DNA of 37,304 nucleotides. Origin: Candidatus Kaiserbacteria bacterium RIFCSPHIGHO2_02_FULL_49_16. GTDB lineage: Bacteria > Patescibacteriota > Minisyncoccia > Phycocordibacterales > UBA2100. Below the pieces are notes generated by a model. That model did no database searches and was not told the origin of the DNA. It saw nothing but the letters and a program-made list of their open reading frames with translations. The number at the start of each line of letters is the position of its first letter. The first letter of the stretch is position 1. This document shows positions 9,205-27,261 of the stretch, piece by piece. A program made the translations under genes and the position numbers. The DNA is taken from NCBI GenBank assembly GCA_001781465.1, contig MFLD01000021.1:1-37304 (forward strand), given 5' to 3'.

Positions 9205-10446
9205 GTGGGACTCTTTTCTAAAAGCAGAATATATCTGGATTACGCAAGCGCGATGCCGATTTTGGATTCTGCGGTTCGCGCCATGCGCGAAGCGGAGAAA
9301 TTAGTAGGGAATCCGGGTTCAATTCATGATGATGGGGTCAAGGCATCGCGCTCTCTAGAAAATTCCCGCGCGCGTATCGCCGCGGAGTTGGGATGCAAGC
9401 CGGGGGAGATTCTTTTCACATCTGGAATTACTGAATCGAACAACCTCGCGATTCTCGGATATGCAAAGAAGGTTGAATTCTTAAGGTCCGATCTTTCCTC
9501 CGAGGACGGATCCGCCTCCGGCGGAAAGGGATTCCAAGGTCGGACCTTGGAGAATACGCACTGGCTCACAACGTCCATCGAGCATGCATCAGTTCTCGCG
9601 TGTTTTCTGCATATTAAAGACATGGGCGGCAATGTTTCTTTTGTTAAACCTGATGCGCACGGAATCGTATCTGCAACTGCGTTCAAAAAAGAATTGCGTG
9701 AAGAAACTGCTTTTGTTTCCCTCGGCTGGGCCAATAATGAGATTGGTGTCATTCAACCTATTGCTGAGATCTCACGCGTTATACATGAGCATGAAAAGAA
9801 GCATGGCTCTACCATCATCTTTCATAGCGACGCCGGCCAAGCGCCGCTCTATCTACCTGCCTCGGCGCACTCGCTCGGCGTTGACCTTTTGTCGATTGGA
9901 GCGGCCAAGCTTTATGGTCCGCATGGGATTGGCGCTCTCTTTAAAGACGACAGAGCGGAACTTGCCCCGATCATTCTCGGAGGCGGGCAAGAACTGGGGC
10001 TCCGTTCAGGAACTGAGAATGTGGCGCTCGCGGCAGGGTTCGCGGAAGCTTTTAACTGCGTCGCGCGCGAGCGCGCGTCGGAATCAAAGCGTCTTGCTTA
10101 TTTGCGCGATATGCTCGCCGAAGGGCTTGCGTCGCAAATTACGGGCATTGTTATAAACGGTGACACAAAACACACGCTTCCGCACATGCTCAACATTTCG
10201 GTACCAGATATAGCCGGCGAATACTTTGTGTTGTCGCTTGATCGAGCTTGCATTTTCATTTCAACCAAGAGCGCGTGCGGAGAGGGCACAGAAAAGAGTT
10301 CACGCGTTGTCGCGGCGCTGATGGGCGAGCCATGGAGGGCGCAAAATTCGCTTCGCTTTTCATTGGGGAGGGAGACAGCCGAGGGTGATATCAAAGAAGC
10401 AATAAAAGAATGTGTCGCGATCGTTGCCCGCCTCCAGTTGCGCTGA
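9205..10446 (+). CDS. Cysteine desulfurase (NifS/IscS family) with an internal palindrome insert
   Basis: A PLP-dependent aminotransferase-fold enzyme that takes sulfur from cysteine for Fe-S clusters and tRNA thiolation. It shows IYLDYASAMP, GNPGSIHDDG, FTSGITESNNLAI, the HSDAGQAPLYLP cofactor site, the lysine segment SIGAAKLYGPHG, LRSGTENV and the cysteine loop STKSACGEG. Ala replaces the usual His before the PLP lysine. The track ORF begins at 9064 inside divergent infB; GTG 9205 gives 413 aa and follows a -10 box. About 28 residues near residue 93-120 are extra compared with the family and coincide with a palindrome in the DNA. No scaffold gene is adjacent. Confidence 0.88.
   Translation: MGLFSKSRIYLDYASAMPILDSAVRAMREAEKLVGNPGSIHDDGVKASRSLENSRARIAAELGCKPGEILFTSGITESNNLAILGYAKKVEFLRSDLSSEDGSASGGKGFQGRTLENTHWLTTSIEHASVLACFLHIKDMGGNVSFVKPDAHGIVSATAFKKELREETAFVSLGWANNEIGVIQPIAEISRVIHEHEKKHGSTIIFHSDAGQAPLYLPASAHSLGVDLLSIGAAKLYGPHGIGALFKDDRAELAPIILGGGQELGLRSGTENVALAAGFAEAFNCVARERASESKRLAYLRDMLAEGLASQITGIVINGDTKHTLPHMLNISVPDIAGEYFVLSLDRACIFISTKSACGEGTEKSSRVVAALMGEPWRAQNSLRFSLGRETAEGDIKEAIKECVAIVARLQLR
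9481..9551. repeat. Palindromic element inside the cysteine desulfurase frame
   Basis: AAGGTCCGA pairs with TCGGACCTT, with inner arms TCTTTCC/GGAAAGGGA and CCGAGG/CCTCCGG. It encodes in frame a polar stretch (SDLSSEDGSASGGKGFQGRT) between two conserved segments of the enzyme. The termini AAGGTC/GACCTT resemble the intergenic palindromes at 10479 and 26271. Confidence 0.8.
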
Positions 10447-25540: not shown

Positions 25541-25622
25541 TTTACAGTTTACAGATAACAGTTTACAGAAAAATGCATTGAGATTCTGATTTCTGCTGTC
25601 AACTGTAAACTGTCGACTGTCA
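25541..25622. repeat. Inverted CAGTTTACAG repeats
   Basis: CAGTTTACAG and related words occur three times on the left, and CTGTAAACTG / CTGTCAACTG occur on the right, forming an imperfect long inverted repeat between two minus-strand genes. It probably acts as a terminator for the MBL-fold gene and carries the promoter of the next one. Confidence 0.55.
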
Positions 25623-26240
25623 ACTGCTTAATACTACCACCTCATTCTCCTTCCCGGCCACGTCGCGGGGCTTTAGTGTCAATTTATCGACCGGCGCTAT
25701 TTTTTCTTCGCCGGATTCTTTCAGGAATTGCTTGAGTGTTTTGTCGTCATAGAGAATCGGAACGATTATTTTCGCCTCAAGTTTTACGGAGAGCTTTTGT
25801 GCCTCTGCTGAAGTCAAAACTCCATTTCCTCCGACAGGAATTATAAGAATATCCGGCGAATCCATTTCCAGAACATCAGGCGGAAGTTCCGTATTGCCAA
25901 GCGCGCCGAGGTATAAAACCGAGAGTCCGTCGAATTTCAGCGCGTAGACGGTATTTATCTTTTCACTTCCGCCGTACTTTGATTTAGTCGGGAATCCCGC
26001 GACAGTAATTTCTTTGACTTCATATTCTCCTGGGCCGGTGACCGCAAAAGGCACTTTATCTCCTCGCCCCGCTTCCTCGACGCCGTTCATATCCGGATGG
26101 TTGAGCGAGACGAAAGCCACATCCGCGCCGAAATTCGTCGGCTTAAAATTCTTTGACTGCTTGGAAACGGGCCCCAAGACGAGAGTAGTATCTCCCGCGC
26201 TTATTCGTACGCATGTTGCATCATGGTAGGTTATTATCAT
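25620..26240 (-). CDS. MBL-fold protein with an altered metal site
   Basis: A 206-aa protein starting MIITYHDATCVRISAGDTTL, with the metallo-beta-lactamase fold order: VAFVSLNHPDMNGVEEA, VTGPGEYEVKEITVAGF, LYLGALG and ILIIPVGGNGVL. The usual HxHxDH metal motif is reduced to SLNHPDMNG, so metal binding may be altered or lost. The ORF track extends upstream into the next palindrome; TATAAT 7 bases before this Met supports it as a leaderless start. Substrate unknown. Confidence 0.8.
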   Translation of the reverse strand: MIITYHDATCVRISAGDTTLVLGPVSKQSKNFKPTNFGADVAFVSLNHPDMNGVEEAGRGDKVPFAVTGPGEYEVKEITVAGFPTKSKYGGSEKINTVYALKFDGLSVLYLGALGNTELPPDVLEMDSPDILIIPVGGNGVLTSAEAQKLSVKLEAKIIVPILYDDKTLKQFLKESGEEKIAPVDKLTLKPRDVAGKENEVVVLSS

Positions 26241-26253: not shown

Positions 26254-26270
26254 GCAGATTTTGGAAATTC

Positions 26271-26356
26271 CCAAGGTCTCTCGGGAATTGAGAGGTGACT
26301 CCTCACCTGAAGGGGAGGTGTCTCCTCGCAGGTTTGGTTCTTGGGTGAGACCTTGG
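26271..26356. repeat. Composite palindrome containing T-T mismatch element, copy 3
   Basis: Outer arms CCAAGGTCTC and GAGACCTTGG enclose GAGG-T-GAC-T-CCTC, a 10-base loop and GAGG-T-GTC-T-CCTC. The inner part follows the same rule as the other copies, with CCTC/GAGG replacing CCTT/AAGG as a paired change. Confidence 0.8.
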
Positions 26357-26385: not shown

Positions 26386-26409
26386 CCACCGGCACTTCCG
26401 TACCGGTGG
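26386..26409 (-). terminator. Terminator of the 10-codon ORF unit
   Basis: On the minus strand a 7-bp CCACCGG/CCGGTGG stem is followed by TTTTCCTTTTT. A second hairpin, GTGGGG/CCCCAC, lies just upstream at 26417-26438. Confidence 0.75.
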
Positions 26410-26458
26410 CCCAACTGTGGGGACAATCTCAGCCCCACTTCAGCCTTGGTTGTGTGGC

Positions 26459-26491
26459 TTAGTTGTTTTGTTGCGCGCGGTGGTAGCGCAT
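26459..26491 (-). CDS. 10-aa ORF behind a near-perfect Shine-Dalgarno
   Basis: Encodes MRYHRAQQNN. It is preceded by AAGGAGGTGAT, the longest match to the 16S anti-Shine-Dalgarno in the window, 7 bases from GGAGG to ATG. A 12-bp leader hairpin lies upstream (26515-26556) and two hairpins, the second a terminator, lie downstream. It may be a leader peptide, a regulatory upstream ORF or a tiny protein. The ORF is too short to judge by coding bias, so the case rests on the signals around it. The stretch 26241-26823 holds no other gene that I can see. Confidence 0.45.
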   Translation of the reverse strand: MRYHRAQQNN

Positions 26492-26494
26492 AAA

Positions 26495-26505
26495 ATCACC
26501 TCCTT
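26495..26505 (-). promoter_or_regulatory. Ribosome binding site AAGGAGGTGAT
   Basis: Eleven bases complementary to the usual end of 16S rRNA, at good spacing to the ATG of the 10-codon ORF. Exceptional in a window where most genes have no such site. Confidence 0.65.
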
Positions 26506-26514
26506 CCCGAGGTT

Positions 26515-26556
26515 GGGCGTAGTCATATGCTCCAGATGAGCAGAATGACCACGCCC
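26515..26556 (-). promoter_or_regulatory. Leader hairpin of the 10-codon ORF unit
   Basis: GGGCGTGGTCAT pairs with ATGACTACGCCC (one G-T pair) with an inner GCTC/GAGC helix. It ends 9 bases before the ribosome binding site. Confidence 0.6.
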
Positions 26557-26573
26557 GGTTGAACACCACTTTC

Positions 26574-26601
26574 AACGTACCAGGGGGGGGGAATTTGTAA
26601 A
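26574..26601 (-). promoter_or_regulatory. Possible promoter with a C9 tract in its spacer
   Basis: On the minus strand TTTACA (26601-26596) and a weak TACGTT (26579-26574) are 16 bases apart, and the spacer contains nine consecutive C. Slippage in the tract would change the spacing. Confidence 0.3.
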
Positions 26602-26630: not shown

Positions 26631-26714
26631 CAGAATATCCGGAGGTTTAACCTCCGGAGAAAAATGCTAATAATCTACGCCTAGGCGTAGATTATTAGCA
26701 TTTGGATTCTGCTT
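26631..26714. repeat. Nested palindromes upstream of the SET gene
   Basis: TCCGGAGGTTTAACCTCCGGA (26638-26658) is followed by a perfect 42-nt palindrome centred on GCCTAGGC (26662-26703). Flanking GCAGAAT/ATTCTGC can close both. A T-rich run after 26711 makes it terminator-like on the plus strand. Confidence 0.75.
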
Positions 26715-26823: not shown

Positions 26824-27261
26824 ATGCGAACACGAATACTTCAAGCCCGGTTTGCCGTACGGAAATCCAAGCCCGGAACGGGGCATGGGCTTTTTGCCAC
26901 TTCTTCGCTTCGTAAGGGAGATTTTATTCTTGAATACAAAGGCAGGCATATCCCAACTACGGAGGCAGATACCTCCGACTCCAGATATCTTTTTGAGATA
27001 GATGGAGAATGGACAATTGACGGCAGTCCGCGCTTCAACATCGCAAGGTACATCAATCATTCGTGCAAGCCGAACTGCGAAGCGGATATGCGGGACAGCC
27101 ACATTCTAATTTACGCGACCCGCGACATAGCGAAAAGCGAGGAATTGAGCATTGATTACGGAGAAGAATACTTTGACGAATTCATCAAACCGATTGGATG
27201 CAAGTGTGCAGGATGCGGTTTACAGATAGAAGTGTCGGCGGCTTTCGAGGTGACTCCTTAG
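26824..27261 (+). CDS. SET-domain protein (putative lysine methyltransferase)
   Basis: A 145-aa protein with the SET fold: KPGTGHGLFATSSLRKGDFI, then the SAM-binding NIARYINHSCKPNCEA and catalytic EELSIDYGEEYF, then a post-SET CKCAGC cysteine cluster. SET enzymes transfer methyl groups from SAM to lysines; bacterial targets are mostly unknown. The last residues (AFEVTP) and the stop codon are encoded inside a palindromic element at 27245-27282, which suggests the element changed the original C-terminus. Confidence 0.9.
   Translation: MRTRILQARFAVRKSKPGTGHGLFATSSLRKGDFILEYKGRHIPTTEADTSDSRYLFEIDGEWTIDGSPRFNIARYINHSCKPNCEADMRDSHILIYATRDIAKSEELSIDYGEEYFDEFIKPIGCKCAGCGLQIEVSAAFEVTP

Follow-up and report, generated by a model that had tools for sequence, protein, structure and literature searches.

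Small mRNAs and peptide-coding small RNAs (sRNAs) are a known kind of transcript, and it is common for small RNAs to contain coding ORFs (PMC5521070). Stem-loops at the 5' end and strong Shine-Dalgarno sequences (SDs) are reported to stabilise mRNA, and a strong SD was enough to keep the ompA and ermC mRNAs stable when the start codon was missing (reviewed in PMC7509114). The window, i.e., the whole stretch of 37,304 nucleotides that was analysed here, contained a complete small transcription unit on the minus strand (26601-26375), including a promoter, a leader hairpin, an SD, an ORF, a second hairpin, and an intrinsic terminator. There is about an even chance that this unit is a complete small gene whose own RNA, ~190 nt in length, is a stabilised short mRNA for a micropeptide; we infer its transcription, stability, and translation, as well as the function of the peptide. 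The unit is located between a SET-domain gene (26824-27261, plus strand) and a gene of the beta-lactamase superfamily with an MBL fold (25620-26240, minus strand), beyond which lies a gyrA-like gene. A genome of 0.9 Mb and the genes it contains point to a Patescibacteria-like host. The features of the unit, together with one element of the downstream gene, are as follows:

26601-26574, minus strand: predicted promoter, with TTTACA at 26601-26596 and TACGTT at 26579-26574
Between these two boxes, minus strand: promoter spacer of 16 nt, AATTCCCCCCCCCTGG, with nine C at 26591-26583 and TG at 26582-26581
26556-26515, minus strand: 5' leader hairpin of 12 bp, arms GGGCGTGGTCAT/ATGACTACGCCC, with an inner 5-bp stem TGCTC/GAGCA
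26513-26498, minus strand: small hairpin ACCTC/GAGGT, which pairs part of the SD in the predicted fold
26505-26495, minus strand: SD AAGGAGGTGAT, an 11-nt perfect complement of the standard 16S rRNA 3' end
26491-26459, minus strand: ORF MRYHRAQQNN, from ATG to TAA, 10 codons plus TAA
26438-26417, minus strand: hairpin GTGGGG/CCCCAC, 3' of the stop codon in the predicted fold
26409-26375, minus strand: intrinsic terminator, with stem CCACCGGTAC/GTGCCGGTGG at 26409-26386 and tail TTTTCCTTTTT at 26385-26375
26256-26248, minus strand: promoter-like extended -10 element TGCTATAAT of the downstream MBL-fold gene, past the terminator and outside the unit

The first-pass annotation had described a self-contained minus-strand unit with a leader hairpin, an SD, a 10-codon ORF, two hairpins, and a terminator, and every one of these parts was found in the sequence. 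The unit starts at the upper coordinate of that annotation because the putative promoter occupies 26601-26574. This promoter was called on the basis of its conservation and its likeness to sigma-70 boxes; a simple promoter scan did not list it. The RNA is predicted to start at ~26567, and the leader hairpin begins ~11 nt after this point. The RNA between 26572 and 26380 was predicted to fold at -87.3 kcal/mol (z = -5.7), a value that was reached by none of 200 shuffles, and the fold of the first 60 nt gave z = -7.1 against shuffles.

A related unit was identified in the same SET/MBL intergenic position in three sister species of the genus (G041, G048, and G013), and the comparison thus covered four assemblies, one per species, apparently all metagenome-derived. 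The unit was absent from the SET- or MBL-gene flanks of the other relatives compared, and the upstream regions of the MBL gene in 30 genomes contained no such unit beyond the sister species. A direct DNA search of 98 genomes returned fragments only, which led to the syntenic orthologs, and a search of 118 genomes for the SD-ATG pattern returned, besides the window unit and G041, two unrelated matches in or at coding sequence. The MBL-fold proteins of G041, G048, and G013 (the last a fragment) were 88-90% identical to that of the window, and the SET proteins were 77-83% identical. Despite these conserved flanking genes, the sequence of the unit was recognisable between orthologs only in pieces. 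Common to all four were the promoter (GCCTTTACAA..TT..CCCC..TGnTAC), the motif GYGWGGUC at the beginning of the 5' stem, and a terminator with a split T tail. The terminators occupied the same position in all orthologs and had a similar bipartite T tail, and their stems were altered yet still paired. A different hairpin took the place of the post-stop hairpin in G041, and none was evident there in G048 and G013. The sequence TGCTATAATC at the promoter-like element of the downstream gene was present in all four species. The unit can therefore be called self-contained, as originally proposed, in that promoter, 5' hairpin, and terminator were kept together in four species and the adjoining gene appears to have its own promoter.

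Other small elements were observed around this locus. Other members of the genus, namely L092 (G047), L094 (G018), L081 (G008), and L093 (G014), carried different small units upstream of the MBL-fold gene, which by eye consisted of an SD, a short ORF (8 to ~66 codons), and a terminator, without the C-rich promoter. A 40-nt perfect palindrome (aatgctaataatctacgcctaggcgtagattattagcatt) lies at ~26660-26700 of the window, between the divergent SET gene and the unit, with partial copies in G000 (contigs C36 and C5); comparable places also hold other palindromes in G013, G041, and G048 as well as on contigs C19 and C6. The terminators of several units are followed by a dispersed repeat block (GAGGAGACACC..GGAGTCACCTC, often with GAGACCTTGGG), whose sites include ~26265-26345 of the window and L010, L011, L016, L134, and L136.

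The outer 5' stem was kept in all three orthologs, with two compensatory changes, three wobble changes (one-sided, to G-U), and no breaks. All 32 cells of the eight aligned pairs in the four sequences were paired, a count that leans toward structure because the arms were hand-aligned to the fold. Pairing fell to 21-50% when the partner was shifted by one to three positions, and in a second control, 36 of 500 letter shuffles matched the observed covariation. With four sequences, the covariation of the 5' stem is suggestive rather than conclusive. Relatives had been expected to conserve either the ORF or the paired arms of the unit; the arms were kept throughout, and the ORF was found in three of the four orthologs and was lost in G013.

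Fragment matches in the window's own genome led to other genes that were preceded by the same promoter and a GGTCTT motif. A unit on contig C6 contained a 23-codon ORF (MSKLLTGLGNVAVRRSTETNGGV) with its own terminator, and a unit on contig C19 encoded a 284-aa orphan protein. A third set, which was found using a profile (R1) of the six promoters at the SET/MBL locus, C6, and C19, adjoins rpsT and contained ORFs of 58 (G013), 51 (G048), and 52 (G041) codons. These rpsT-side units do not lead into the adjoining gene because they face its 3' end on the other strand; no rpsT was found in the assembly to which the window belongs. A profile of all nine promoters (R2) returned, over 70 family genomes, nine units at E below 1e-6, all in four species (window unit, E 1.6e-9), a recovery that follows from R2 having been built from those nine. 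Nothing else in the 70 genomes fell below E 0.05, and large searches of this kind use stricter filters. Weak profile matches were detected in G038, G018, G044, G004, G029, G106, and G037, none of which obviously heads a comparable unit. The promoter pattern matched six sites in the 70 genomes, one of them an unrelated-looking site in G100, and the reversed pattern, used as a control, matched none. Beyond two contigs apparently of G041 and G013, the pattern occurred in the genome collection only in distant taxa, and the viral contigs showed only partial promoter matches plus two starts that ran into longer ORFs.

A hairpin lay within ~11 nt of the predicted start in seven of the nine units, and not clearly so in those of C6 and C19. 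The first 60 nt folded more strongly than the shuffle mean in 7/9 units, clearly so in about half. The family proteins were mostly not alignable; the C6 protein and the rpsT-side protein of G013 shared one stretch (AVRRSTETNGG / ALQRSTSGNSG; uncorrected P 0.005, with 21 comparisons made). Searches of Pfam and PHROGs with the family proteins, including the 284-aa protein of C19, gave no match, and in Rfam (15), at gathering and relaxed thresholds, the window unit matched only far below the gathering score. No entry for the family was thus found in Rfam, Pfam, or PHROGs, and no description of it was recognised in the titles and abstracts of the open-access literature. Given that the shared promoter heads five further units, the window appears to hold the shortest member of a lineage-restricted, fast-evolving family of small genes, for which at least nine units in four related species have been found so far.

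The ORFs at the SET/MBL locus encode MRYHRAQQNN in the window (10 codons), MRYRQSRRNS in G041 (10 codons), and MRKKSFARNEENG in G048 (13 codons), and G013 has none. The window and G041 differ in 13 of the 27 nt of codons 2-10, and every residue of the two peptides is identical or similar. The BLOSUM62 sum for this single pair, which was chosen after the data had been seen, was 23 vs. a simulated mean of 4-9 (P 0.0003-0.005, depending on the substitution model), and a cruder residue-shuffle test gave P 0.018. The G048 ORF has GGAGG seven bases 5' of its ATG, and its likeness to the window peptide is weak and not significant (P 0.33). The G013 ortholog kept the promoter, the 5' hairpin, and the terminator; its ORF and strong SD are absent. 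To judge from these substitutions, the codons of the window unit do not look free. On the other hand, similarity in G041, a non-significant result in G048, and the lack of an ORF in G013 indicate that the 5' hairpin is better conserved than the codons. Of the three functions that had been offered for the unit, a tiny protein gained the most support, namely from the SD and ORF in three of four orthologs, the conservative substitutions, and the sister ORFs of 23-58 codons, and the loss in G013 counts against it.

No other start codon in the window is preceded by as long an anti-SD match as that of the unit (11 nt vs. 8 and 7 nt for the next), as scored against the standard 16S rRNA 3' end that was assumed for the host. 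Exact copies of AAGGAGGTGAT are expected by chance ~0.02 times in the window (2 x 37304 / 4^11), and the whole 905-kb assembly contained three, of which one of the others lies opposite an apparent coding region and one lies 3' of an rpsO-like gene. At L040 (G000 C36, ~10148-10158), a sequence like the 16S rRNA 3' end (AAATCACCTCCTTTCT) was observed directly 3' of an rpsO-like gene. Mean pairing probability in the predicted fold was 0.8 for the SD and 0.6 for the start codon. The description of this site as the strongest ribosome binding site in the window therefore holds for its sequence and not as a measured strength, given this partial pairing of both elements. An SD core (GGAGG/GGGGG) with a 7-nt spacer to the start was present in the window unit, G041, and G048, i.e., in three of four orthologs, and G013 had none. 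The core was only GGAGG in G048 and C6, and GGAAGGA-, AAGGAGA-, or GGAGAA-like in the rpsT-side units. Local hairpins at the SD, analogous to ACCTC/GAGGT of the window unit, were also predicted in G041 and G048, which is weak evidence. Partial pairing of SD and start codon in all three ORF-bearing orthologs could, according to the modelled folds, gate translation; little weight was placed on this because short motifs rich in purines readily find pairing partners.

The most unusual feature of the family is its C-rich promoter spacer. A run of 8-9 C separates the boxes in the window unit, G041, G013, and G048b, and uninterrupted runs of 7-9 C occurred in five units overall; the spacer was 15-17 nt long across units. 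The run was interrupted in the other four of the nine units (CCCCCACC, CCCCTCCCCC, CCTCCCTCC, and CCACCCCCC), so that C-richness, and not a slippery run, is what is kept. Poly-C-spacer promoters are associated with phase variation in the opc and fetA genes of Neisseria. A lineage-specific regulon, in which a cassette of C-tract promoter and 5' hairpin drives tiny fast-evolving proteins and C-tract slippage switches each unit on or off, is a doubtful reading of the present family; if it were true, these reduced-genome bacteria would vary their repertoire of small peptides. Runs of 9 and 11 C, possibly slippage-prone, were also observed within related-looking small coding sequences at L142 (G038 C5) and L053 (G017 C15).

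If the unit is a stabilised short mRNA for a micropeptide, its C-rich-spacer promoter would start the RNA at ~26567, the 5' leader hairpin and, at the other end, the terminator hairpin would protect the RNA from decay, and the very strong SD would load ribosomes onto the ten-codon ORF. The product would be a micropeptide rich in arginine, glutamine, and asparagine, and the encoded peptides of the family would evolve very fast under a common promoter module. Ten codons are very short for a product with its own function, which counts against the micropeptide. The strongest competing reading is that the RNA itself is functional, because in G013 the RNA frame persists and the ORF does not. The 5' hairpin and terminator would then frame a small regulatory, possibly dual-function RNA that acts by base-pairing with targets or by binding a protein, with the ORF being secondary. 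The retention of promoter, 5' hairpin, and terminator in 4/4 orthologs despite the loss of the G013 ORF, the strongly structured window-unit RNA (z -5.7), and the frequency of small RNAs with coding ORFs (PMC5521070) are consistent with such an RNA. However, the single-stranded sequence needed for target pairing is not conserved: no conserved unpaired seed or protein-binding site was found among the four orthologs, which share little sequence apart from the promoter, the first part of the 5' stem, and the tail of the terminator. There is also no Rfam family match, the sister units with the same promoter have ORFs of 51-58 codons and in one case encode a 284-aa protein, and the substitutions between the window and G041 look peptide-constrained. 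A regulatory RNA is a tentative possibility and on the whole unlikely.

Less probable than this is a decaying remnant, i.e., an ancestral small-protein gene with an ORF reduced to 10-13 codons, or to none in G013, and with a promoter, hairpin, and terminator that linger. The ORFs of 10, 10, 13, and 0 codons at this locus vs. 23-58 at the sister loci, together with the loss in G013, point in that direction, but decay should also erode the promoter and the stems, yet the stems stay paired via compensatory changes. The SD spacing is moreover constant at 7 nt in three species, the window-unit SD is the strongest in the window, and the residue changes are conservative. Far less likely is a ribosome-sensing leader with switching downstream hairpins, as suggested by the first-pass annotation, which as an attenuator would control the beta-lactamase-fold gene and gyrA. 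An ORF of leader-peptide size, with a hairpin and a terminator between it and a gene on the same strand, would suit this role, which is nevertheless unsupported because nothing further downstream appears to belong to the transcript. The unit is unlikely to regulate the MBL-fold gene, since that gene has its own extended -10 promoter-like element past the terminator in 4/4 species. The terminator stems pair fully alone, visual comparison of the minimum-energy folds from the four orthologs showed no conserved alternative partner, the rpsT-side sister units do not lead into their neighbour, and the ORF lacks a long run of one regulatory codon. The third suggested function, an RNA that captures 30S subunits with its SD as a decoy for the 16S rRNA 3' end, is the least credible. 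The SD complements the standard anti-SD over 11 nt without a mismatch, a strength found nowhere else in the window, which speaks for a decoy, but a decoy should keep exactly the SD sequence of the window unit. This function found no support because the G013 ortholog lacks a strong SD, the core is only GGAGG in G048 and C6, and the rpsT-side sister units have weaker variants, and the window-unit SD is itself predicted to be largely paired.

Most knowledge of reduced-genome bacteria such as these comes from assemblies, and annotation normally passes over very short genes. The present family shows that small genes can be picked out in them by a common promoter and RNA ends, even with ten codons that are nearly unrecognisable between species, and the promoter profile provides a short list of loci for existing metatranscriptomes. 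The family resembles the Neisseria opc and fetA promoters in the C run between -35-like and -10-like boxes, whereas the run is interrupted in 4/9 units here, where one genome per species was compared. As in ompA-type mRNAs that are stabilised by a 5' stem-loop (PMC7509114), a hairpin is located at or near the predicted 5' end and is followed by a strong SD; unlike in these mRNAs, the coding part is tiny, and stabilisation of the window-unit RNA is presumed from this likeness. The closest known kind is that of small mRNAs and peptide-coding sRNAs (PMC5521070), with which the predicted transcript shares its independent short length, a promoter, an SD, an ORF within 10-50 codons, and an intrinsic terminator. 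In contrast to these, the present family is restricted to the four species in which it was found, is without a match to a known family, and is linked by a common C-rich-spacer promoter that heads otherwise unrelated, very fast-evolving ORFs.
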